Assembly (NCBI GenBank): GCA_946186275.1
Contig: CAMHMO010000006.1
Location: 1-64,000 of the forward strand
Source: an uncultured Verrucomicrobiota bacterium
GTDB taxonomy: Bacteria > Verrucomicrobiota > Verrucomicrobiia > Opitutales > UBA9783
DNA: 64,000 bases
Direction of reading: 5' to 3'
Each line of letters opens with the position of its first letter. The first letter of the stretch is position 1. Below the pieces are notes generated by a model. That model saw nothing but the letters and a program-made list of their open reading frames with translations. It was not told the DNA's origin and ran no database searches. The position numbers were made by a program, and so were the translations under genes. Positions 16,579 through 56,726 of the stretch are shown one piece after another.

Positions 16579-17496
16579 CTATTTCTTTGTTTCGGAAGTT
16601 TGTTGATCCTCTTTGAACCAATCGAGCTTTGCCAATTCCTGCCCGAGCCAGTTTGAAAACAACTCCGCACCTTCCGCATTCAAATGGGACGCATCCCAAC
16701 AATGTTCTTCGATTTGCTCGAGCAACGGTGATGGCGGACGTTCAATCCAAACGAAACCTTCATCGAGAACGGCTTGCTTAATTTTATTCCAATCGACACC
16801 GCTGAGTTCATCCTCCAATTCATCCATTTCGCGGTACGAAACCATCCGATAGGCGACGACTTTGATGTTGTTTTTCTTACACCATTTCAGGTTTTGAACG
16901 AAATGTTGGAAATCGGAGGTGCGAAAGGGCGCTTTTTGAAGATTACTACGATAACTTTTTAGCGTGTTTAAAATTGCATTTTCATCTTTCGAACGTTTTT
17001 CTTCCATATATCCGAACGGAGTGTGAGGTATGATGGATTGGTCTACAAAAAGGTTAGTTTTTTGAGACAAAATGCTTCGCAAAGCAAATAAAACGGGATT
17101 TAATTCTTTTATGTAAAAAAAATGTTCATTTTTCATATTCACCAAATCGAGGTACGTGCAACCGAATACCAGAATACGTTTTCCGTTCCGTTTGAGCCTC
17201 TTTTTAGCTTCTCTCAGTAACTGTCTGTTGATTCTTCCGCTGGAAAACCCAAAATTATAAAAGCTCATGTTTGGAATGTACTTTTGTAATATTTCCGGAG
17301 AGACACCTTTATATGTTCTGGAATCTCCCATCAATAAAATATCATATCGCGGTTTTCCGTAACGCTTTTCAATCCAAAAAAGCTTTCGTTCGGGAAGATG
17401 TTGCTTCTTCTGTAGTGGAGGAAAATGTGAAACCGCTACCAATCCTATTGCGATGAACAAGGTTACAGATGTTCTGCTTTCCTTAAACAAATTCAT
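16579..17496 (-). CDS. SGNH/AlgJ-like acetyltransferase partner of the MBOAT protein
   Basis: The 305-residue protein has an N-terminal membrane anchor (SVTLFIAIGLVAVSHF) and then an SGNH-hydrolase-like domain facing the periplasm. The GDS block with the nucleophile serine is ILLMGDSRTYKG near residue 55-60, and the C-terminal Asp/His pair is WDASHLNAEGAELF near residue 272. Such proteins complete polysaccharide O-acetylation by taking acetyl from an MBOAT channel protein (as AlgJ/AlgX with AlgI). The MBOAT gene ends one base upstream of this start, so the two are coupled. The acceptor is most likely the polysaccharide made by the genes upstream; that is inference. Confidence 0.82.
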   Translation of the reverse strand: MNLFKESRTSVTLFIAIGLVAVSHFPPLQKKQHLPERKLFWIEKRYGKPRYDILLMGDSRTYKGVSPEILQKYIPNMSFYNFGFSSGRINRQLLREAKKRLKRNGKRILVFGCTYLDLVNMKNEHFFYIKELNPVLFALRSILSQKTNLFVDQSIIPHTPFGYMEEKRSKDENAILNTLKSYRSNLQKAPFRTSDFQHFVQNLKWCKKNNIKVVAYRMVSYREMDELEDELSGVDWNKIKQAVLDEGFVWIERPPSPLLEQIEEHCWDASHLNAEGAELFSNWLGQELAKLDWFKEDQQTSETKK

Positions 17497-17497
17497 A

Positions 17498-19009
17498 TCA
17501 GAACTGAAAATAAACGAACTGTTTCCCGGGTCCTCTCAGAAAGACACAAAGGAACAGAAAAATCCCCATAAATATCGCTTGTGCAAGAGGCGAAATTTTC
17601 AGCTTTTCAACGAGATTGAGATTTCTTTTTCGGCAGAATAACCAAAAAGCTTCCGCCAAAAACAAACATCCGCAAACGAAGAGAGTGAAATATATTCGTT
17701 TCGTGGACATATCAACACCGATAAAGCCCCATCTGAAAAATTCTCCGAACGGGGTGCCGCCGGTGAAGTCCAGCGAGAACATTGCTTTTAACACATCCAA
17801 TGCCTGCGATAAGTCTTCGGAACAAAAGAAAACCCAGGCGACGAGAATTTGCACACTCGTTAGAAACCAGGCGAGTATTATTCCGAAAGAGCCTTTCTTT
17901 TTGAGTGTCGTACAAACTCCAAACAGACGTTCAATACTCGAAAACAGTGCATGACACAATCCCCAACAGACAAATGTCCATGCGGCACCGTGCCATAAAC
18001 CGGATAGTCCTAAGGTAATCCATAGGTTGCGATACGTACGCCACGTGCCGTTTCGACTGCCGCCGAGCGGGATATAGACGTAATCGCGAAACCAGGACGA
18101 AAGCGATATGTGCCATCGCGACCAGAATTCACGTATGTCGGTGGAAAAATAGGGTGTGTTGAAATTCTTCATCAAATGCAATCCCATCCAGCGCGCCAGC
18201 CCTCGGGCAATATCCGTGTAGCCGGAAAAGTCGCAGTAAATCTGAAATGAAAAGTCGCAGTAAATCTGAAATGCAAATCCAAAAATAATAACCCACCACC
18301 AAAGGGAAGAACTGTTCATAATAGGGGAACCGAAAGCACTATCCACTATATAAGCCAAATTGTCGGCTATGGCCATTTTCTTGAAATAACCCCAAATGAT
18401 AAGGCACAATGCCCGAAAACGTTCTTCTTCCGTTAAAGACTTTGGCGTTTGAGTGATTTGCGGCAGAAGATTGGGAGCACGCTCAATCGGTCCGGCAACC
18501 AGTTGCGGAAACAGGGTTAAATAAGTAAAGAAATGCAGGATATTCTTTGTCGGTTTGAGCTCGCCTTTGTAGACATCAATCGTATAGGACATCGATTGGA
18601 AGGTGTAAAAACTGATGCCGATCGGGAGGACGAGAAAAAAATCCGGCAGATTAACGATCAAATCGGCTTCCGTATAACCGAGAAAATGCAGAAAGTTGTT
18701 GATATTTTCAACGATAAACTCCGAATACTTGAACGTTCCGAGCATTCCGAGATTTGTGAGCATCGAAAGCGTCAGCCAAAGCTTTTTTCGACGTTTGGAG
18801 GAGCTTCTTCCAATCAACAACGCGGCGGTAAAATCAACTACACTGCTGAGGATAAGAACAAATAAATAGTACCAATTCCACCATCCGTAGAAAAACAGCG
18901 ATGCCGCAAGAATATAACAACAACGGATTGTTGTGTGATTTTTAACGAACGACCACAGCGCAAAAAAACACGCAATGAACAGAACAAAGACCAGAGAGTT
19001 AAAGATCAC
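17498..19009 (-). CDS. MBOAT O-acyltransferase (AlgI/PatA-like) with an 8-residue internal duplication
   Basis: This multi-pass membrane protein of 503 residues moves acetyl groups across the inner membrane for polysaccharide O-acetylation. It has the family motifs YTDIARGLARWMG, FWSRWHISLSSWFRDYVYIPLGG and GLWHGAAWTFVCWG with the catalytic histidine. Just before YTDIARG, the conserved block FQIYCDFS occurs twice in a row, encoded by a perfect 24-bp tandem duplication; homologues have it once. The frame is kept, but the extra eight residues sit in the conserved core and may disturb function. The start is GTG (19009) with GGGAGGG upstream. The SGNH partner follows after one base. Confidence 0.92.
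   Translation of the reverse strand: MIFNSLVFVLFIACFFALWSFVKNHTTIRCCYILAASLFFYGWWNWYYLFVLILSSVVDFTAALLIGRSSSKRRKKLWLTLSMLTNLGMLGTFKYSEFIVENINNFLHFLGYTEADLIVNLPDFFLVLPIGISFYTFQSMSYTIDVYKGELKPTKNILHFFTYLTLFPQLVAGPIERAPNLLPQITQTPKSLTEEERFRALCLIIWGYFKKMAIADNLAYIVDSAFGSPIMNSSSLWWWVIIFGFAFQIYCDFSFQIYCDFSGYTDIARGLARWMGLHLMKNFNTPYFSTDIREFWSRWHISLSSWFRDYVYIPLGGSRNGTWRTYRNLWITLGLSGLWHGAAWTFVCWGLCHALFSSIERLFGVCTTLKKKGSFGIILAWFLTSVQILVAWVFFCSEDLSQALDVLKAMFSLDFTGGTPFGEFFRWGFIGVDMSTKRIYFTLFVCGCLFLAEAFWLFCRKRNLNLVEKLKISPLAQAIFMGIFLFLCVFLRGPGKQFVYFQF
18225..18272 (-). repeat. Perfect 24-bp tandem duplication within the MBOAT gene
   Basis: Two identical 24-bp units (18225-18248 and 18249-18272) each encode FQIYCDFS. 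There are no differences between the copies, so the event is recent or under active exchange. Deletion of one copy would restore the usual family sequence. Confidence 0.95.
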
Positions 19010-19050
19010 GCCTTGAGCCCTCCCAAACTTAAGGCAAGAAAGGAATCAGC

Positions 19051-19141
19051 TCTCTCATGGAAGACTCTTTACGACCTTTTTAAAGCTGCTTTAACAGTTT
19101 GAGTTTCCTTGTCGGATGTAAAGTATTTTTTCGAAAAAATT
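19051..19141 (-). promoter_or_regulatory. Leader element A upstream of the MBOAT operon
   Basis: This block resembles leader element B (30317-30410) over about 90 bases. On the minus strand both run CTTTACATCCGA, then an inner hairpin, GTAAAG that can pair with the first CTTTAC, and CATGAGAGAG. Here the inner hairpin is TTAAAG-CAG-CTTTAA (19080-19094) and the outer arms are 19067-19072 and 19118-19123. It lies between asnB and the GTG of the MBOAT gene. A structured 5' leader or regulator target is likely; the exact role is unknown. Confidence 0.55.
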
Positions 19142-19197
19142 CAGCACTTGTATCAAATGTATCCCGTTATATGGTGGAAACCACATACGCTTTTTTA

Positions 19198-21108
19198 TTA
19201 CACCGAAATGCGAAACAATTCCATCCATCGTATCAGGCTGATATACCGCCAAATAATATCGCTTCGCCAACCGTCTGTGCGGTTCCTATCGGCAATCTTC
19301 TTCCAGTGCGCCCGTACAACTCCCGAGCGAACTCCCGGCAATTTATCCAAAACTTTACTGCTCAATATATGTGTTACAAAGGAAGCGTTCGCCAAAAGCC
19401 AACGCGATTCCGTCGGTGCATAGCCGATTTTATCCTTACGCCAGGCAATTTCTTTCGGAACCCAATCTTCAATGGCTTTTCTCAGAATAAACTTCTGCCA
19501 TCCGTCGTTTGAAATCAAATACTCCTCCGGTAATGTGTGTGCAAATTGCACCAACGGGTCCCATAGAAACGGAACACGATTTTCAATCGAAAACGCCATG
19601 GCGTTTTTGTCGTCGCTCCGCAATAAGTGCGGGATACTGGTGATTTTAAGTTTTTCATCAATGGCTTTGCGCAAGGAACATGGTTTCGATGGGTAAAGCA
19701 AAAGGTGTTCCTTCAATATGCGTGGTTCAAAACCACAGTAACTTCCACGCTGATACAGTCGTCGGAGAGTTGCTCGAAACATCGGAAGACGTTCAAGCAT
19801 TCCATCAACCAAAAAACCGATTAATTGAATTTTATCAGCGGAATTTCTAAACAAACCCCAAACCTGTCTCCACGAGCGCGATATAAATGCTTCACCAATG
19901 GCACTGGGCAAATAGGATGCATATCCCGTGAATACCTCATCTCCCCCTTGTCCATTAAGACTGACAGTAAAGCCTCGTTTCTTCTGATCTTCAAATACTT
20001 TATAACTGGCGTAATTGGAGGCACTGCCGAAGAGTTCTTCCTGCTGAAGAATATAACGGTCAAAATCTTTTTCTAAATCGGTCGGCTGAATTTTTACTTT
20101 CATCAACCGAATGCCGCAATGTTTGGCAACGCACTCGGCGTAACCGGATTCATCGATTTTCGGATCGTCGGCCTGATAAGTGAATGCCGTGAGATTGGAG
20201 TGATATCGGGATGCAATAGCAGTGATGCCGGACGAATCAATGCCGCCCGATAAGTTGCAACAAACGGGCACGTCGCTTGCCAAATGTTTTTCGACACTTT
20301 CTTCCAACAAACGGCGCACCGTTTGCGCGCAGGTGTTAAAATCAGAACATTTTTCGATCTTTGAGGTTTCCCATCGAAAGTATTCATGCATTTCGCACGA
20401 CAGATGATTATCCCTTATTTGCAGGGTTATTACATGTCCCGGTTTACACCGAACGATATCCTCCAGAACGGTTGTCGGATCGTAACCGATGTTCCCCAAC
20501 ACAAGATAGTTGATGCATTGTTTTATGTTTGGTTTCCGACTGCATTCCGGTAACTCCAACAGACAGTCAATGCGTGAAGAAAACGCGAAAAAATCGGTTG
20601 TTTTAAAAACATACAACGGTTTAATTCCATAGGGATCCCGTGCCAAAATACACTTGTTTTCAACGCGATCAAAAAACGCAAACGAAAACATCCCTTCAAG
20701 TTCTTGCAAATTTTCAATTCCACTGTGAATTAAGTACTGCAACAACACTTCCGTATCGCAATCCGTTTGAAATGTGACGCCTTGCTGCTCCAATATCTGG
20801 CGAAGTGTTTTGTAATTGTAAATCTCACCGTTAAAAATAATTACATACCGACCGTCACAGCTTTGCATCGGCTGATTGGAATGTGTATCCAAATCCAAAA
20901 TCGACAAACGCTTGTGCATAAAAAACACATCCCATGCTTCTTCGTAAGGTACTTGCGATTGCAGAAAAGTTTTTTGGGTTTCCCTGTGATACCCGTAAAA
21001 GCCCGTTGCATTCGGGCCTCTGAGGTGCATTAAAGAGGAAATTTTATCGGCAAACGCCTGTGTAACTTTGTAAGGCTTTGCGCTCAAAATCCCGAATATT
21101 CCGCACAT
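19198..21108 (-). CDS. asnB: Asparagine synthetase (glutamine-hydrolysing) family amidotransferase
   Basis: The 636-residue protein starts MCGIFGIL; after removal of Met, Cys2 is the glutaminase nucleophile, which fixes the start at 21108. The N-terminal Ntn domain (RLSILDLDTHSNQPM, IIFNGEIYNYKTLR) releases ammonia. The C-terminal synthetase domain has the PP-loop SGGIDSSGITAIASRY near residue 240 and LNGQGGDEVFTGY. Within polysaccharide clusters such enzymes often amidate sugar acids, here plausibly the carboxyl of a ManNAc3NAcA-type residue. Ordinary asparagine synthesis cannot be excluded. It follows the glycosyltransferase gene by 16 bases. Confidence 0.92.
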   Translation of the reverse strand: MCGIFGILSAKPYKVTQAFADKISSLMHLRGPNATGFYGYHRETQKTFLQSQVPYEEAWDVFFMHKRLSILDLDTHSNQPMQSCDGRYVIIFNGEIYNYKTLRQILEQQGVTFQTDCDTEVLLQYLIHSGIENLQELEGMFSFAFFDRVENKCILARDPYGIKPLYVFKTTDFFAFSSRIDCLLELPECSRKPNIKQCINYLVLGNIGYDPTTVLEDIVRCKPGHVITLQIRDNHLSCEMHEYFRWETSKIEKCSDFNTCAQTVRRLLEESVEKHLASDVPVCCNLSGGIDSSGITAIASRYHSNLTAFTYQADDPKIDESGYAECVAKHCGIRLMKVKIQPTDLEKDFDRYILQQEELFGSASNYASYKVFEDQKKRGFTVSLNGQGGDEVFTGYASYLPSAIGEAFISRSWRQVWGLFRNSADKIQLIGFLVDGMLERLPMFRATLRRLYQRGSYCGFEPRILKEHLLLYPSKPCSLRKAIDEKLKITSIPHLLRSDDKNAMAFSIENRVPFLWDPLVQFAHTLPEEYLISNDGWQKFILRKAIEDWVPKEIAWRKDKIGYAPTESRWLLANASFVTHILSSKVLDKLPGVRSGVVRAHWKKIADRNRTDGWRSDIIWRYISLIRWMELFRISV

Positions 21109-21124
21109 ATATAACTTTTTAGAA

Positions 21125-22249
21125 TTATTTTTTGGATTTTTTCGATTGAGACACCTCTTCAAGAAATTTTAAAAAACCATCCGCTTCCGATTCAAAATTA
21201 TATTTTGTTTCAAACGCTTTCCGACCGTTCATCCCCATCGTCCTGGCGACCTCCTTGTTTTCATACAGGTAATCGATGGCATCGGCGATTGCTTGCGGAT
21301 CGGCGTCAACGACCAAACCGAGCGGGTGACCGTTGTTATTCATAAAGTTTTTGAACCACATGCTGTTCGTTGCCTCAAGAATGATACCGGGAAGACCATT
21401 GGCCATATATTCTTGTAACTTATTCGAGGAAGCCGAACTATTACCAAAATAATTTGCGTGGGCAACAAAGCCGGCAAAACACTCTTTATGCAGTAATTTT
21501 ATTTGTTGCCAACAAACATTCTCCTTGAAGTCTGTTTTTTGGAAACCAGACGTATTAATAACTGAATTTAAACCAGTTGAAGAAAGATTTCTTAAACGTA
21601 GGATCAATTTGATATCGTTTCTACACAGTGTTAACGCACGAACCAAGTTTAAAATAACGGGATAAAACGTTCCTGTAAATAAGATACAATGCCTGTGTTT
21701 AAAATCAGGCATTTGAACGGATTTGAAATCTTTTAACATGGCATAATTATGTAAGAGATGGATATTTTTCGCATGAACTTTCTTAAGAAAATCCACAATG
21801 CCTTCCGTGGCCGCAATATTTCCATCCATGTGTGGAATTGAAAAGCGCGCGAGGCACTTGAAAAAGAAAATAAGCACTACCCTTAGCATAAAAGGGAAGC
21901 TTTCCGCACCCTTGTCGTAGTACTCGTGACAATCAAAAACAATACATTTGTTCCTTCTTTTGAGTAATAAGGCAATCAATAATAACTCACAGTCATGCAA
22001 CACATAAATATCGGCATCAATGGCTTTTGCCTTTCGATATACCCTAAATGGAGCAGAAATCGCCCTCAGGAGTTTCGATTTGTATTTTTTTATACCGTGA
22101 ATATGAACATTGTCTTTTAACTCATAACCTTTCCCATCGCAGGTGACGTAGTGCACTTCGTAACGCTGTGTCTCAGCAAAACACTCTTTCCGAAAAATTC
22201 GTGCATCATCCCTAGGATGTATTGTTGCCAGATTGCAAATTTTCTTCAT
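21125..22249 (-). CDS. Glycosyltransferase (GT-B, family 4/1-like)
   Basis: This is a cytoplasmic GT-B transferase of 374 residues that should add a sugar to the lipid-linked polysaccharide repeat. The N-terminal half has ADIYVLHDCELLLIALLLKRR and FDCHEYYDKGAESFPF. The C-terminal donor-binding part has FTGTFYPVILNLVRAL, NKLQEYMANGLPGIILEATNS and the end DAIDYLYENKEVARTMGMNGRKAF. Codon use is visibly more AT-rich than in the flanking housekeeping genes, usual for surface-polysaccharide loci. Donor and acceptor cannot be read from the sequence. Confidence 0.85.
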   Translation of the reverse strand: MKKICNLATIHPRDDARIFRKECFAETQRYEVHYVTCDGKGYELKDNVHIHGIKKYKSKLLRAISAPFRVYRKAKAIDADIYVLHDCELLLIALLLKRRNKCIVFDCHEYYDKGAESFPFMLRVVLIFFFKCLARFSIPHMDGNIAATEGIVDFLKKVHAKNIHLLHNYAMLKDFKSVQMPDFKHRHCILFTGTFYPVILNLVRALTLCRNDIKLILRLRNLSSTGLNSVINTSGFQKTDFKENVCWQQIKLLHKECFAGFVAHANYFGNSSASSNKLQEYMANGLPGIILEATNSMWFKNFMNNNGHPLGLVVDADPQAIADAIDYLYENKEVARTMGMNGRKAFETKYNFESEADGFLKFLEEVSQSKKSKK

Positions 22250-22258
22250 GCCTTTCGC

Positions 22259-22933
22259 CTAAAATCTTTCTCCGTTTGTATTAAATAAAAAATCAACGAC
22301 CGACAATCCGCCGATAAAATTACCGTGCAGTTGAGGATAGGGTTGTATTTTAAAATCACTGTATATCAACTGAACACCGTTTTGAGTAAAATCCTCTTCT
22401 TTTTGATATTTTTTGGCACCGTTGCCGGAAATATAAATATCACCGTCTAATTTTTTTACGAGATCGATGATACGTGCTTCCTTCTGTTGGGTACTGTTTA
22501 AATTCGAAGCAAGTACTATTTGACACTTAATATTCAAACTCTTTGCACAATATTTTATAAGTTTAATATTCAATTCATACAAATATTCAAAGTGCATTTG
22601 AAAAATATGCTTTACGTTGTCAAAATGCATCTGAAAATAGGGAGCTTTCGAATAACACCCCTGTAGGGTTTTTAGAAATTTTTTGCAAAAAAAAGGATAA
22701 TTTTCGGAAAACAAAACTTCGTTAATAAGGGTATTTTGCGTGTCTTTTTTCTTTGGAAGCACAATCTGAAGTTTTTGGCCATCCGTATTTTTGATGTTCA
22801 TTTGTGTAAAATAAGAGCCACTGTTTGATACCAAAACATCATCCAGTATCACAAACACATCGCACTGCTTCATTTTGTAAAAATATCCGAGCCACGGGAG
22901 AAAGTTTGGTTGATGAATAGCGATTTTCTTCAT
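22259..22933 (-). CDS. WbqC-like protein
   Basis: The 224-residue protein begins MKKIAIHQPNFLPWLGYFYKM and has CDVFVILDDVLVSN and MNIKNTDGQKLQIVLPKK, the hallmarks of the WbqC family. These proteins are found in O-antigen clusters next to sugar-modifying genes, and their biochemical role is not settled. The start at 22933 overlaps the stop of the GNAT gene by four bases, showing translational coupling. It is strongly AT-rich with many Lys and Asn codons. Its neighbours (PIG-L deacetylase, GNAT) suggest a shared sugar modification. Confidence 0.85.
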   Translation of the reverse strand: MKKIAIHQPNFLPWLGYFYKMKQCDVFVILDDVLVSNSGSYFTQMNIKNTDGQKLQIVLPKKKDTQNTLINEVLFSENYPFFCKKFLKTLQGCYSKAPYFQMHFDNVKHIFQMHFEYLYELNIKLIKYCAKSLNIKCQIVLASNLNSTQQKEARIIDLVKKLDGDIYISGNGAKKYQKEEDFTQNGVQLIYSDFKIQPYPQLHGNFIGGLSVVDFLFNTNGERF

Positions 22934-23343
22934 AATTTTAGTATCAAAGTCCAAAAACAAAGTCCCGATGCGTAACCATACATTGTGTTATGAAGTTGAA
23001 ATCCAAGTTTCTCATAGAAGCCTCTTGCCGCAATATAACTTGTTTTGACACTGAGAAATTTTGCCTCATCTTGCTGCGCCACCGAAATTGCATGTTTAAC
23101 TAAAGCAGTACCGATACCCTTATGGCGCATTTCTTTTTGTACAAAAAATTCAACTATGTGAAAGTTTCCCCACGAAAGGCGTGCTCTTAAGCTTCCGATG
23201 TAATCCGGATTTTCGACCACAAAGGTATATTGCTTAATCGTATTCCGAGCGTGAAAAATTTCCATACCCAACCTGGCAAATTCTTCTGCAACAAATTGCG
23301 TCTGTTTTGTTGTTAACGGTTTTTGTTGAATATCAAATTCCAT
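22930..23343 (-). CDS. GNAT-family N-acetyltransferase
   Basis: The 137-residue protein has the GNAT acetyl-CoA binding loop in EMRHKGIGTALVKHAISVAQ (R/Q-x-x-G-x-G/A form) and the C-terminal ARGFYEKLGFQLH motif. It lies directly after the PIG-L deacetylase gene and overlaps the WbqC-like gene, so it may acetylate an amino sugar or a precursor in the polysaccharide pathway. GNAT substrates vary too widely to say more. Confidence 0.88.
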   Translation of the reverse strand: MEFDIQQKPLTTKQTQFVAEEFARLGMEIFHARNTIKQYTFVVENPDYIGSLRARLSWGNFHIVEFFVQKEMRHKGIGTALVKHAISVAQQDEAKFLSVKTSYIAARGFYEKLGFQLHNTMYGYASGLCFWTLILKL

Positions 23344-23976
23344 TTAAAGTACTCCTCGAAAACGAATACATTGATACCCAGCCGCATAGAGTTTCCCTAT
23401 TTTAATGCCGATTGTCGTAAATGACGCCCTTATAAAATCTTCCTGCATGTACCGTTTGTGTTTTTGTGTTTTAAAACAGGCGCAAAACGCGATTATTTTT
23501 TCTACCATGATTTCATCAAGTTCGAAAAAAACATTATTTTTTTCATAAAACGTGTTCCACGGATAAGTCCAACCGAAAATGGTTGCACTGTTCTTGAAAC
23601 AGCGAAGCACCTCATTATGCACCACCTGATGATCCTGATGTACATCCGACGAGTTAGGGGCTAAAACAATATCCGGGCTGAAATCCGTTCGAACTTTTAT
23701 AAGTTCCTCCAGAATCGCTTGTCGATGTTCCGAAAAACGGCGTACCGGAAATTGGAATGTGCGAATATTTTTTGAAGGCACCCCAATGCTGAAAAGAGCT
23801 GCTTGTTCTTCTTGGGCGATTGTATATTTTTGATAACCCAACGATTGCGCTGTTTCTTCGCAGAGAGAAAAACTAAGAATTTTTAGCTCAACATTTCCTC
23901 TTCTTTGAAGATAAAAATAAAGCGGCAATCCTGCCATTTCATCGTCGCAATGAGGCGCTAACAAGAGTAACTTCAT
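23344..23976 (-). CDS. PIG-L/LmbE-type N-deacetylase
   Basis: This 210-residue zinc-dependent deacetylase has the opening LLLAPHCDDEMAGLPLYF (metal ligands in HxDD) and SSDVHQDHQVVHNEVLRCF (third histidine ligand). Family members remove acetyl groups from GlcNAc-type sugars on lipids, small thiols or antibiotics. Here it is placed between a glycosyltransferase (overlap of four bases) and a GNAT (gap of none), so deacetylation followed by another acylation of a sugar is a reasonable reading. The metal-binding residues look intact. Confidence 0.88.
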   Translation of the reverse strand: MKLLLLAPHCDDEMAGLPLYFYLQRRGNVELKILSFSLCEETAQSLGYQKYTIAQEEQAALFSIGVPSKNIRTFQFPVRRFSEHRQAILEELIKVRTDFSPDIVLAPNSSDVHQDHQVVHNEVLRCFKNSATIFGWTYPWNTFYEKNNVFFELDEIMVEKIIAFCACFKTQKHKRYMQEDFIRASFTTIGIKIGKLYAAGYQCIRFRGVL

Positions 23977-25232
23977 CTACAAAATCCTTTCACAAATTGA
24001 GCATACTCGGCATAAACTTTCTCAGGATTTGCATGCTCTTTAAAAAATAACCGAGATTGCTTCGCCATAGCACGACGCAAATTACCATCATCCCGCAGCA
24101 ATAAGAGCAATTTTTGTAATTGTTGTAAATCATTTCCGTGCCAATTGAGTCCGATACCATGTTGTTCGACAATAGTGCCTAATTCGCCCGGCATTCCGTT
24201 AAGCAACGGGAGCCCGCACATAAAATGGAAAAAAGCTTTATTGGGAATCGTCGGGGTTACTTTGGTAAATTGAACCAAGCTTTCATTTGAACTGAATACA
24301 GTACCGCAATGACAATGTTTTGCCAAAAAATAAGCCTCCTCATGCGACAAATAACCAGTTAGAAAAACATTGGATAAAAACGCAGTTTCTTCTCGAATCT
24401 TGTCGCCATAGTCGCCGTCACCGCAAAGAACAAAATCAACGGCTTCATTTTGCATTCGACGTGCAAGTTCTACCAAAAGCGATGGTTGGAAGTTGATGCC
24501 CCATTTGCTGATGTACAAAACTCTGAAGGTTTTTCGTGCAAGCATAGGTGCATATTTTTTTGAAAAAACGTCCGTTTGATGTTTTGTCAAAAAAATATCT
24601 TTAACCGTACTTAAGTAAAATATTTTTGTCGGTTTCTGCTGACGCCGTATTTTTTTTAATCCCCAATGCAACATATCTTGCGACATCGAAATGATTGCGG
24701 AAGAGTCTTTCAAAGTCCTTTTGAGTAAATATTGGTCTGGTTTTATAGCTAATTTTACCAGGCGCTGTAACCACTTGTTTTTAACAGCATAAGGAAACGC
24801 ATTTGGCCATGGGTCTCTTAAATCAAACAAAAAAGGAATACGTCTCTTTTTTGCAAATTGGCAGGCGGCATATGAAGCAACAACATTTTGGTTGGAGCAA
24901 ACGATTGTACCGATAGAATCGATATTTTCCAAAACGGACAACATCTGTTTGGCACAAACCCAGTCGTGTAGATAGCGTTTAACGGAAATATTACGCTTAT
25001 AACCAATACCAGGAACGTGGATGATTTTAAAATGCTCATTGACCCACTGGACGGAGCTCCCATGCAAATTTTGCTTTTTACTATGCGAAAAACCACTCTT
25101 GATCCATGTAACATCGCAGTCGTTTTCGGAGAGTGCTTTTCCGAGAAAGACTGTGCGTCTAGGTATATACCCTCCGCCAGGCTCAGGCGTCTCGTCGTAA
25201 AAAGCAATGAGAAGAACCTTTTTACGCATCAA
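23973..25232 (-). CDS. Glycosyltransferase family 4
   Basis: This 419-residue GT-B glycosyltransferase has the N-terminal glycine-rich acceptor region (ETPEPGGGYIPRRTVFLGKALSE), PFLFDLRDPWPNAFPYAVKN in the middle, and FVLCGDGDYGDKIRE and LTGYLSHEEAYFLAKHC in the donor half. It resembles WbuB-type transferases of L-FucNAc or related residues in O-antigen assembly. It overlaps the wbpI stop by about ten bases and the PIG-L gene by four. Donor identity is uncertain. Confidence 0.87.
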   Translation of the reverse strand: MMRKKVLLIAFYDETPEPGGGYIPRRTVFLGKALSENDCDVTWIKSGFSHSKKQNLHGSSVQWVNEHFKIIHVPGIGYKRNISVKRYLHDWVCAKQMLSVLENIDSIGTIVCSNQNVVASYAACQFAKKRRIPFLFDLRDPWPNAFPYAVKNKWLQRLVKLAIKPDQYLLKRTLKDSSAIISMSQDMLHWGLKKIRRQQKPTKIFYLSTVKDIFLTKHQTDVFSKKYAPMLARKTFRVLYISKWGINFQPSLLVELARRMQNEAVDFVLCGDGDYGDKIREETAFLSNVFLTGYLSHEEAYFLAKHCHCGTVFSSNESLVQFTKVTPTIPNKAFFHFMCGLPLLNGMPGELGTIVEQHGIGLNWHGNDLQQLQKLLLLLRDDGNLRRAMAKQSRLFFKEHANPEKVYAEYAQFVKGFCR

Positions 25233-26307
25233 TCGTTTGTTTTAAAAGTGAAACAATTTTCCGCGCCGCGTGTCCGTCGCCGAACGGATTTTCACCGATA
25301 ACGGGACTGTATGTTCTGGAAGAATCGAAAGTTGCATCCGAAAGATTACATCTCGTTTGCCAACCGCATGCCGCGATTTGTGGCCAGCAATCTTCAAAAT
25401 AAAAAAAGTAGCTGTATTTGTTGGCAAAAAATGCCTCCCGTTGAAGACCTCCTGAATCAGTCACAACGAAGCAACAATCATTCACGAGAGCCAACGTATC
25501 TAAATATGCCAAAGGTGGCAACAGTAGAACGTTGGTTCCATTAAGATCGTTCAGTAAATGATGCTTCCGAAAACTCTTTTCCGTTCTCGGGTGTATCGGA
25601 AAAACAATCGGCATCCCGATACTCTTAATAAGACGAATCAAATTTTGACAACCTTCTTCCGAATCAATATTTTCCGCTCGATGAAACGTCATGAGAACGT
25701 AATGTTCGGGGGATAAATGATGATCCGAAAGAACGGTTGATTTTCGAGAGGCGAGTAACGAAAACTGTCGGAATGTATCCAACATGGTATCGCCCGTTAA
25801 ATACACATTCTGCACGATTCCCTCTTTTTTTAAATTTTCTATTTCATTTTGTGTACAGCAACAATGAAGAGTCGTTATACGCGAAACGAGTGTACGGTTA
25901 ATTTCTTCCGAAGGAACTTCCGTAACGCGATGTTGGCGCGCCAGACGACAACCGGCTTCAACGTGAACAACGGGGATGTGTAATTTGGCGGTGGCTAACG
26001 CACCTGCCAAAGTGGAATTCGTATCGCCGTAGACGATGACAAAATCAGGTTTTTCCTTTGAAAGAACCTCATCGAGTCTTATTAGAATTTCACCGGTTAC
26101 GGTATTCTGTGTTTTATGATGAAGTGAAAAATGAAACTTGGGGATGGGAAGAGGCAAATCTTTAAAAAAAACATCGCTCATATCGGCATCGTAGTGTTGC
26201 CCCGTATGAATAAGAACTTCCTCGATTCCTTGTGCCTTTAATTCCTGAGCAACAACGACCTCTTTCATAAATTGAGGTCGATTCCCGACAATGGTACAGA
26301 CTTTCAT
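25222..26307 (-). CDS. wbpI: UDP-GlcNAc(3NAcA) 2-epimerase, WbpI/WecB family
   Basis: This 361-residue non-hydrolysing 2-epimerase starts at 26307 (MKVCTIVGNRPQFMKEV). Motifs are IHTGQHYDADMSDVFF, the YGDTNSTLAGALAA-like block, HVEAGCRL, and TDSGGLQREAFF with the catalytic residues. On its own it could be WecB making UDP-ManNAc. Its position after wbpA, wbpB, wbpD and wbpE argues for the last step to UDP-ManNAc3NAcA as in P. aeruginosa WbpI. It begins eight bases downstream of the wbpE stop. Confidence 0.92.
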   Translation of the reverse strand: MKVCTIVGNRPQFMKEVVVAQELKAQGIEEVLIHTGQHYDADMSDVFFKDLPLPIPKFHFSLHHKTQNTVTGEILIRLDEVLSKEKPDFVIVYGDTNSTLAGALATAKLHIPVVHVEAGCRLARQHRVTEVPSEEINRTLVSRITTLHCCCTQNEIENLKKEGIVQNVYLTGDTMLDTFRQFSLLASRKSTVLSDHHLSPEHYVLMTFHRAENIDSEEGCQNLIRLIKSIGMPIVFPIHPRTEKSFRKHHLLNDLNGTNVLLLPPLAYLDTLALVNDCCFVVTDSGGLQREAFFANKYSYFFYFEDCWPQIAACGWQTRCNLSDATFDSSRTYSPVIGENPFGDGHAARKIVSLLKQTIDA

Positions 26308-26315
26308 TCGTAACT

Positions 26316-27449
26316 TTACATCAACAATTCCGACATCCCGCAAACTTCACCAACCTCTTCTTCCGTCAAATACGGCGACATGGGCAGGCTGAAAACGGTT
26401 TGAGATACCTGTTCGCAAACAGACATATTGCTTACATGCGGAAAGTGCTTGTATGCCGTTTGCAAATGAAGCGGTTTCGGATAATAGATAACCGTTGGGA
26501 TGCCACGACTGCCGAATGCTTCCATTACCTGCTTCCGAGCCGACGGATCGGTTGTCCTTAAAGTGTACTGCGCCCAAACGCACGTATCATTTGTCGGGTG
26601 GAGCGGTGCTTGAAAGCGCGATTGGAATGCCTTTGTATAACGTTCGGCAATCTTGTTACGAAGGATAATTTCCTTCGGAAACAATTTCAATTTTTCAATT
26701 AAAACAGCGGCTTGCAATGTGTCCAGGCGGCTATTTTGTCCGATGCGAACATTATCGTATTTTTCGGTTCCTTTGCCGTGTTCACGCAGGCTCCGAATAA
26801 GCGCATCCGCTTCGTCGTCGTTGGTGAAAACGGCTCCGCCGTCGCCGTAGCAACCGAGCGGTTTTGCCGGAAAAAAGCTGGTGGTTGCGATGGCGCAATC
26901 GTGACAAGAGCAAACCATATAATCGTTATGGGTACAGCCGAACCCCTGCGCACAATCGGACATGACCCATAAGTTGTTTTCTTTTGCAACTTCGTTAACA
27001 GCGGTATAGTCGGCAGCCAACCCGAATAAATCGACTGCGATGATGCCGGCTGCTTTTAAAGATTGTTTTTGCGCTTCAAAAACAGCTTCCTTCAGGCTTT
27101 TAATGCTCAAATTGTAGGTTTTGTTATCGATATCGACAAAAAACGGAATGCCGCCGCAGAGCACAACCGCCTCTGCTGTTGCCGCAAAAGTTAAGCTCGG
27201 AACAAAAACGACATCATCTTTTTGCAGATGCATCGCTTGCAGAGCCAGAACTAAAGCATCGGTTCCGTTCCCGCAGGTAATGGCGTGCTTGACGTTTGCA
27301 AAACGTTGCAGTTGATTTTCAAATTCGATCACCTCCGGACCGTGGATGTACTGACCGTGGTCCAAAACCGCACGAATGGTATTATCAAAAGCCTCCCTGT
27401 GCAGTTGATATTGACGTCTCAGATTAATGAACGACATTTTCATAGGCAC
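26316..27449 (-). CDS. wbpE: PLP-dependent sugar aminotransferase, DegT/WbpE family
   Basis: The 377-residue enzyme of the DegT/DnrJ/EryC1 group transfers the amino group of glutamate to a 3-keto UDP-sugar acid. Visible motifs are [45 protein letters not shown], and [20 protein letters not shown] with the lysine that binds PLP, then [12 protein letters not shown]. In the WbpB/WbpE pathway it makes UDP-GlcNAc3NA. Its first codons overlap the wbpD stop by ten bases; MSFINLRRQ, four codons in, is an alternative start. Confidence 0.93.
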
Positions 27450-54704: not shown

Positions 54705-54794
<90 letters not shown>

Positions 54795-54959
54795 GAAAAG
54801 GCTAAATTTTATAGAATTTTCTATTGTTTTGGCGGGTGTTGGTTTTGTGCCTATGCTACCGTTTCGTTTTAAACGTTTGTAGGTTCGTGGAAGGTTGCAA
54901 GCAATTTTTCAAGAGCTTACGGTTGTAGTATTGATGTTCCGTTTTTTATCTTTGTACAG
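54795..54959 (+). ncRNA. Candidate structured leader/ncRNA of the reverse transcriptase
   Basis: The 165 bases between tRNA-Ser and the reverse transcriptase hold several potential hairpins. ATAGAA/TTCTAT lies near 54810. A stem CTAC-CGTTT with AAACG-GTAG carries a three-base bulge near 54857-54884, and AAGC/GCTT lies further on. The T-rich end leads into the ATG without a Shine-Dalgarno site. Several defence reverse transcriptases copy an RNA encoded beside them. Whether this is such an RNA is unproven. Confidence 0.3.
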
Positions 54960-56483
54960 ATGAACAAAACTGTTCTGGACTTAAACGCATCGGAGATGCG
55001 AGAATTTTTTCTTCAAAGTGATCGCTATTGTACCGTCAAACTGCCAGAGTATTTTTGTTTTACGAATTTACTTAAAAATTTATACGGACATATTAAGAAA
55101 AAAAATGAAAGCAGTATAGTACAAGATTGTAAAAAAGCCGGGAATTTCGAACGCATTAACTATGAAATAATGGTCGATAAGGGTAGTGGACTTGATTGGC
55201 GAAAATTACAACTCATACACCCTTTTTTATATGTTTCCCTGGTTCGTATCTTGGAAATACATTGGAACGAATTACAAGAAAGATTTGCTTATTTTAAGCA
55301 GGATAATATACTCTGTGCGAGCATTCCGATTGTACCCGACAGTCGCCGTAGCTATATCAAAGAAACGGTGTTAAATTGGGGTGAAAAAGTCGTACATGTT
55401 TCGTTATCGTTTTTGTTGGAATATTCTTGTTTAGCTTGTACCGATATAACCAACTGTTACAACTCCGTTTATACTCACTCTGTTGAATGGGCGTTGCTTG
55501 GAAAAGAATTTTCAAAACAGGAGGTGCTTGGGAAAACGAACAAAAATCAAAAGGGAAAAAAAGAAAATGTCGGGAAGGTAATTGATACTCTTCTGAGATA
55601 TATGCACTACAATCAAACAAACGGAATTCTGCAAGGATCCGTTTTAATGGATTTTATCGCCGAATTTGTTTTAGGATATACCGATACGAAATTAACCGAA
55701 GCAGTCGAGAAAATAAAAGTAAGTAACTACAAAATCATAAGGTATCGGGATGATTACAGAATCTTTACAAAAAATTCCGATGATGGTAACGAAATCTTAA
55801 AGTTGTTGTCCGAAGTTTTAAGCGAATTCGGTTTTACATTGAACGCTCAGAAAACCTCTGTAAAGGAGGATCTTGTGAACGGTGCATTTAAGGAAGACAA
55901 GTTGGAGTTTATTCTTGCACCCCTCAGGACATCAACAGGTTTGGAGCAACTCATACGGATTTATAATTTCGGGAAAAAGTTCCCGAATTCCGGGCAAATT
56001 GTAAAATTACTTTCAAAATACAGATATACGCTTGATAAGTGGTTATCAAAGAGAAAAATTTCCAATACTCAAATTACGGAACTTATTGCTATTGTGACGA
56101 ATATCGCGGATAAAAACCCGAGAACACTCCCCCTTTGCATGAATATCATCAGTTTTTTAACGGATCAATATTCTTTCGATCAACAAAAGAAAGATATAAT
56201 CGAGAAAGTTAAAAATAAATTATCGGGCGGAACAAGGCGCGAATTGTTGGAAATTTGGATGCAACGTTTAACACTCAAATTTGAATATGAACAGTCGTTT
56301 TCCTCTAAATTGTGTCAATTAATCAATAGAAATAATGACACAGGCGGATTGTTCGATATTTCTTGGCTTTCGAATGAAATTCGGGATATATTTCGTGAAA
56401 CTCCCGTTATCGATCGCAATATTACGGAAAAAATGCCTCCTGTGATTGGTAAAAACGAAACAGACGATTTCAATGAATACTAG
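54960..56483 (+). CDS. Reverse transcriptase, defence-associated (DRT/UG)-like
   Basis: The 507-residue protein has the catalytic core of a reverse transcriptase: motif A TDITNCYNSVYTHSVEW with Asp near 162, the motif B region NGILQGSVLMDFIAEFVLGY near 220-238, and motif C YRDDY near 262-266, where retrons and group II introns usually have YxDD. The last 190 residues are helical with no known nuclease or maturase domain. No integrase, intron ends or diversity-generating repeats are seen. That fits the Unknown Group/DRT enzymes that protect from phage. The gene is AT-rich compared with its surroundings and sits between two tRNA genes, suggesting transfer. The exact DRT class I cannot assign. 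Confidence 0.85.
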   Translation: MNKTVLDLNASEMREFFLQSDRYCTVKLPEYFCFTNLLKNLYGHIKKKNESSIVQDCKKAGNFERINYEIMVDKGSGLDWRKLQLIHPFLYVSLVRILEIHWNELQERFAYFKQDNILCASIPIVPDSRRSYIKETVLNWGEKVVHVSLSFLLEYSCLACTDITNCYNSVYTHSVEWALLGKEFSKQEVLGKTNKNQKGKKENVGKVIDTLLRYMHYNQTNGILQGSVLMDFIAEFVLGYTDTKLTEAVEKIKVSNYKIIRYRDDYRIFTKNSDDGNEILKLLSEVLSEFGFTLNAQKTSVKEDLVNGAFKEDKLEFILAPLRTSTGLEQLIRIYNFGKKFPNSGQIVKLLSKYRYTLDKWLSKRKISNTQITELIAIVTNIADKNPRTLPLCMNIISFLTDQYSFDQQKKDIIEKVKNKLSGGTRRELLEIWMQRLTLKFEYEQSFSSKLCQLINRNNDTGGLFDISWLSNEIRDIFRETPVIDRNITEKMPPVIGKNETDDFNEY

Positions 56484-56649
56484 CACCATGAAAGCTTCTA
56501 CCGATGCTCTTCGGGTCTTTCCCCGATGAGAGAAGAAATTCTTTAATTTTTTGAAAACGTTTAACGAATTTATCTATTCTAATGGTTCTTTACAAAAATA
56601 AAGGGAGTTAAGGTACAAAATAAAAACGTTCTTATGCTTCTGCCCCTCC

Positions 56650-56726
56650 TGGTCGGGATGGCCGGATTCGAACCGGCGACACCCAAGTCCCGAACCTGGT
56701 GCTCTGCCAGACTGAGCTACATCCCG
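56650..56726 (-). tRNA. tRNA-Pro (CGG)
   Basis: Minus-strand clover-leaf with encoded CCA. The acceptor CGGGATG/CATCCCG is perfect, with the unusual C1 start typical of tRNA-Pro. The loop TTCGGGA gives CGG. It faces the 3' end of the reverse transcriptase gene. Confidence 0.94.

Follow-up and report, generated by a model that had tools for sequence, protein, structure and literature searches.

A lone, divergent Abi-P2 family reverse transcriptase gene between tRNA-Ser and tRNA-Pro in an uncultured Verrucomicrobiota bacterium

The window analysed here, a stretch of 64,000 nucleotides (nt) from an uncultured Verrucomicrobiota bacterium (contig CAMHMO010000006.1), contains a gene that is real but ordinary; its product belongs, as a divergent member, to the known antiphage reverse transcriptase (RT) family Abi-P2. 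Our reading, to which we assign a probability of about 0.9, is that this divergent Abi-P2 polymerase is the lone cargo of a small tRNA hotspot and aborts phage infection by template-free, Tyr31-primed synthesis of single-stranded DNA. The family, the fold, the intact active site with its primer residue, the single-gene setting and the variable occupancy of the site were obtained directly. Features of the locus are collected in Table 1.

Table 1 Features of the Abi-P2 locus (window positions)
Feature	Position	Strand	Remarks
tRNA-Ser (GGA)	54705..54794	+	Left hotspot border; ARAGORN and Rfam; conserved in G005 and G006
5′ flank, probable promoter/leader	54795..54959	+	Modest hairpin at ~54877–54922; partner-RNA evidence none
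Abi-P2 family RT gene	54960..56483	+	507 aa, ATG start; PADLOC AbiP2 profile, 7r08 by sequence and fold
Tyr31 codon	55050..55052	+	Aligns with priming Tyr61 of P2-EC30 Abi-P2; Tyr in 111/111 sequences
Catalytic Asp162 codon (motif A, TDITNC)	55443..55445	+	Invariant in 111 sequences
Catalytic Asp264-Asp265 codons (motif C, RYRDDYRI)	55749..55754	+	Invariant in 111 sequences
3′ flank	56484..56649	+	Folds like shuffled sequence, z ~0
tRNA-Pro (CGG)	56650..56726	-	Right hotspot border; ARAGORN and Rfam; conserved in G005 and G006

The RT gene has a single plausible start, as no in-frame ATG, GTG or TTG occurs in the 29 open codons 5′ of position 54960. Its product, in which an RVT_1 domain is detected (E 1.6e-9), is composed of an RT core (approximately residues 1–320) and a C-terminal all-helical domain (approximately residues 327–491). 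It is the sole such gene in the 1.02-Mb assembly and is surrounded by housekeeping genes, namely trpB (PALP domain), ruvC and a gene for a LysM protein, and its GC content is 35.5% versus 47.5% for the window, 49.9% for trpB and 56.2% for ruvC. The two tRNA genes are convergent, with both 3′ ends pointing towards the RT gene. All the elements of the lone intact RT between tRNA-Ser and tRNA-Pro described in the first-pass annotation (the reading frame, both tRNAs and motifs A, B and C) were recovered. Within codons 9–17 of the gene (window 54986–55010), a hairpin and T-run resemble a terminator; such sites are about as frequent in the scan as in shuffled sequences. The window contains a second AT-rich stretch (16579–26343), with several genes at 33–40% GC, among them surface-polysaccharide genes encoding a WbqC-like protein, glycosyltransferases, asparagine synthase, a PIG-L deacetylase and UDP-GlcNAc 2-epimerase.

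By profile and predicted fold, the class of the RT is settled as Abi-P2. The PADLOC AbiP2 profile covers residues 2–506 with 522.6 bits (E 2.6e-157), close to the 536.8 and 530.4 bits that the same profile gives for the experimentally studied P2-EC30 and P2-EC58 proteins, and the next families are RT_UG14 (164 bits), Drt6 (151) and Drt4 (139); comparison with UG/DRT profiles had been the check proposed in the first-pass annotation. The best solved structure by sequence is 7r08, the Abi-P2 of P2-EC30 (E 9.7e-79). An AlphaFold2 monomer model, built from a 62-sequence alignment (pLDDT 92.1, pTM 0.92), has the same structure as its first fold match (TM 0.84/0.88, rmsd 2.7 Å over 522 columns), followed by UG15, DRT4, DRT6, AbiK and AbiA, all at TM ≤0.61, and, still lower in query-normalized TM, by DRT2, DRT9, retron, DGR and group II RTs. 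The Abi-P2 bilobal fold, made up of RT fingers and palm and a C-terminal helical domain that replaces the thumb, is present in the model.

Besides the invariant catalytic aspartates and the tyrosine aligned with the primer, the window RT has a motif B reading QTNGI. Position 16, equivalent to Tyr46 of the P2-EC30 protein, is Phe in the window protein; of the 111 sequences, 70 have Phe there and 37 have Tyr. In P2-EC30 Abi-P2, priming needs Tyr61 and not Tyr46, and the Y46F variant is active (PMC9508834). Judged from the alignment, the residues needed for protein-primed, template-free synthesis are present in the window protein, and we infer the activity itself.

Purified Abi-P2 synthesizes DNA without a template, and the P2-EC30 protein is primed on itself via Tyr61, works independently of a template and is encoded by a gene that protects against T5 (PMC9508834). 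According to a recent preprint, class 1 DRTs in general synthesize without a template and class 2 DRTs use a non-coding RNA (ncRNA) (PMC13174585). By analogy with the studied homologue, oligomer formation, untemplated synthesis and phage defence are most likely properties of the window protein as well. It would assemble as a trimer or dimer of trimers and make single-stranded DNA without a nucleic-acid template, each chain starting on the protein's own Tyr31 and the product being protein-linked; upon infection, this untemplated synthesis would abort the phage infection.

The site between the two tRNA genes varies among congeneric genomes. In G006 (L028:1507-1746), the same two tRNAs lie 240 bp apart and the RT is absent, homology to the window ending at the 3′ end of tRNA-Ser and returning just before tRNA-Pro. 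In G005 (L027:3197-5399), the interval measures 2203 bp at 38% GC and carries a type II restriction-modification pair, whose restriction enzyme matches PADLOC REase_II (1.6e-105) and whose D12-class adenine methyltransferase matches MTase_II (1.7e-143). No match to the RT was detected in the eight remaining genomes of the family. With its AT-rich sequence and a site that is elsewhere empty or filled with other defence cargo, the RT gene looks transferred, in agreement with what the first-pass annotation had proposed. Compared with one another, the intervals of the window, G005 and G006, including 54795..54959, have no meaningful sequence in common, which suggests either that flanks arrive together with each cargo or that the spacer drifts rapidly.

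Judged from these three genomes of one genus, the tRNA-Ser to tRNA-Pro slot has the appearance of a small hotspot for defence genes, a compact site where the single defence system differs between genomes of ~1 Mb. No integrase was seen adjoining the RT gene. Integration linked to the tRNAs was considered and set aside: a simple scan found no direct repeats of at least 9 nt between the slot borders, and the sole 11-nt inverted match between them is the T-arm common to both tRNAs. The slot cargo may plausibly be exchanged by homologous recombination in the conserved flanks. The trpB gene beside the hotspot in G005 (L027:5858-6437) is frame-shifted and truncated after approximately residue 194; within the family, trpB was detected in this genus only.

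Searching with an alignment gave 409 relatives in bacterial genomes, of which 80 were kept, and 32 in viral contigs; relatives also occur on P2-like phages and plasmids. A single-sequence scan for close relatives of the window protein found none in the genome or viral contigs. In the tree, where it occupies a long branch of its own, the window protein shares no more than 41% identity with any row; we class it as a divergent Abi-P2 protein and not as a new family, and because of this low identity its product or target range may differ from those of studied Abi-P2 proteins. It adds a deep branch to the small set of characterized template-free polymerases and helps in asking which residues are truly needed.

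A tRNA neighbourhood as a habit of the whole family was rejected, since a tRNA lies within ~4 kb on either side in just 5 of 60 homologue loci. Other settings were encountered: at L160:1529-9988, in genome G088 of the same taxonomic order, Abi-P2 has hsdS on one side and hsdR on the other within a type I restriction-modification operon, and in L003 it lies directly 3′ of hsdS. In five Bacteroidota homologues (L069, L091, L048, L061 and L093), strongly folding repeats follow right downstream of Abi-P2, with TAAC...GTTA ends in several of them and, in L069, repetition along the contig. These repeats resemble integron attC sites, so in these bacteria Abi-P2 may move as a gene cassette; no attC-like repeats occur in the window.

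That the RT gene goes unexpressed or is decaying, a passenger without present function, is a very improbable reading. A small reduced genome would suit it, as would the absence 5′ of the gene of both a Shine-Dalgarno motif and a sigma-70-like promoter; against it, the full-length frame is open, the catalytic and priming residues are all kept, the genes of the window in general do without Shine-Dalgarno motifs, and promoter scans are uninformative for organisms with other promoters. Among 42 mechanically picked ORFs of the window, taking the first ATG of each, a Shine-Dalgarno motif of at least 4 nt precedes 15 (36%, chance 31%) and one of at least 5 nt precedes 5 (12%, chance 8%). The missing ribosome site noted in the first-pass annotation is indeed absent at 54960, but says nothing special about this gene, because the genes of the window show no excess of such motifs. 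The scan for sigma-70-like promoters 5′ of the RT gene found none, and a promoter-like TAnnTTTG motif just before the ATG (54947–54954) was discarded, its frequency in the window being no higher than chance.

The 165 nt of non-coding space 5′ of the RT gene and a hairpin within it (~54877–54922; z ~−2.0 to −2.5 versus shuffles) could suggest that the RT uses RNA made from the sequence 5′ (or 3′) of its gene as template or scaffold, like DRT2, DRT9 and DRT10. Of the several hairpins that the first-pass annotation had seen in this flank, one is notable, but folding this strong is reached by approximately 3–5% of 150-nt tiles drawn at random from the window. The genome holds no second copy of 54795..54959. 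Across the window, only tRNA families reach the Rfam gathering score, and a lenient Rfam search of the flank returned, besides the tRNAs, just two sub-threshold matches, both of which overlap tRNA-Ser. Abi-P2 works without a template (PMC9508834), and the fold of the window protein is unlike those of DRT2 and DRT9 (TM ~0.3).

Conservation of flanks was compared across the family using the 300-nt flanks of Abi-P2 homologue pairs binned by protein identity, with pairs of viral contigs left out. Between proteins 60–90% identical, at least 100 nt are common upstream in 3 of 166 pairs and downstream in 4 of 165, and no pair at 90–97% identity shares at least 100 nt of flank. High-identity non-viral pairs mostly have some 25–57 nt next to the start codon in common upstream, which fits a promoter or leader. 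DRT2, which has an established neighbouring ncRNA (PMC12039810), served as the control, its set being small, partly viral and built from an alignment after two single-sequence DRT2 scans had given no matches. All 10 of its pairs at 60–90% identity share at least 100 nt upstream; downstream, none of 9 pairs at 60–80% identity shares any, and below 60% identity the control, too, yields nothing. The test is thus powerful between close homologues only, and there it detects such an RNA.

The proposal in the first-pass annotation that the flank is a template RNA, to be sought by aligning homologous loci, is not supported by this comparison, in which the flanks of close Abi-P2 homologues proved unconserved by the very test that recovers the DRT2 ncRNA; the result is a controlled negative for a conserved flanking RNA in Abi-P2. 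Moreover, 38 of 106 Abi-P2 loci carry, upstream on the same strand, an ORF of 120 aa or more (hsdS in L003 and L005) that overlaps the start or stops within 100 nt of it, leaving less than 100 nt for an upstream RNA. A partner RNA from the flank is, on this evidence, highly improbable.

Folding upstream of the gene at 111 Abi-P2 loci is weak, averaging z −0.44 with 13% below −2, versus −0.24 and 5% for an internal coding control. Downstream, z falls below −2 in 31% of homologues; the Bacteroidota cases inspected resemble integron attC sites and are therefore not taken as a sign of partner RNA. An exception to the Abi-P2 rule is seen in two Legionella loci (L055 and L058, proteins 60% identical), where ~170 nt located ~30–200 nt before Abi-P2 are common at 76% identity and fold very strongly (z −6.0 and −4.3).

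A narrower version holds that a lineage-specific leader RNA, comprising the 54877–54922 hairpin and acquired by this Abi-P2 branch alone, regulates or templates synthesis. With no relative above 41% protein identity found for a comparison of flanks, this version keeps a very small probability. The housekeeping neighbours and the unconserved flanks of the family instead suggest that Abi-P2 acts as a single gene without partner RNA or protein, an argument that is indirect for the window's own flank.

The reading of the window RT as a retron, group II intron, DGR or CRISPR-associated RT has next to no probability and is already refuted by sequence and fold: the RT core alone is held in common (group_II_RT_mat 45 bits, retron_St85 25 bits), the scores fall far short of the curated cut-offs (TIGR04416, 45 bits versus 300; NF038233, 25 bits versus 235), fold matches to retron, group II and DGR proteins are much weaker than the match to Abi-P2, Rfam scans find no intron RNA or retron RNA, and partner genes are absent near the RT gene. 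The DRT/UG-type antiphage identity that the first-pass annotation had preferred to these classes is borne out by the AbiP2 profile and by the sequence and fold matches.

Among known systems, the template-free Abi-P2 polymerase proposed here is closest to the Abi-P2 of P2-EC30 (orf570 of an E. coli prophage, PDB 7r08), with full-length homology and a shared bilobal fold. The catalytic Asp triad, the position of the priming Tyr, the single-gene organization and a mobile or variable location are common to both. The window protein is, however, only ~36% identical to it and has a shorter N-terminus (507 versus 546 aa in total), and its gene occupies a chromosomal tRNA-Ser/tRNA-Pro slot, whereas that of P2-EC30 resides in a P2-like prophage. 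The class 1 Abi RTs of Lactococcus, AbiK and AbiA, likewise combine an RT core with a C-terminal helical domain, but match at TM ~0.5, 12–19% identity and a far lower profile score; AbiK is known for protein-primed, template-free synthesis. DRT4, DRT6, UG14 and UG15 are the nearest other UG/DRT families by profile or fold, at 139–164 bits compared with 523 bits for AbiP2 and at TM 0.57–0.61 for DRT4, DRT6 and UG15. DRT2 and DRT9 are antiphage systems with an RT core like that of Abi-P2, but they work with an adjacent ncRNA, and their folds match the model at TM ~0.3.
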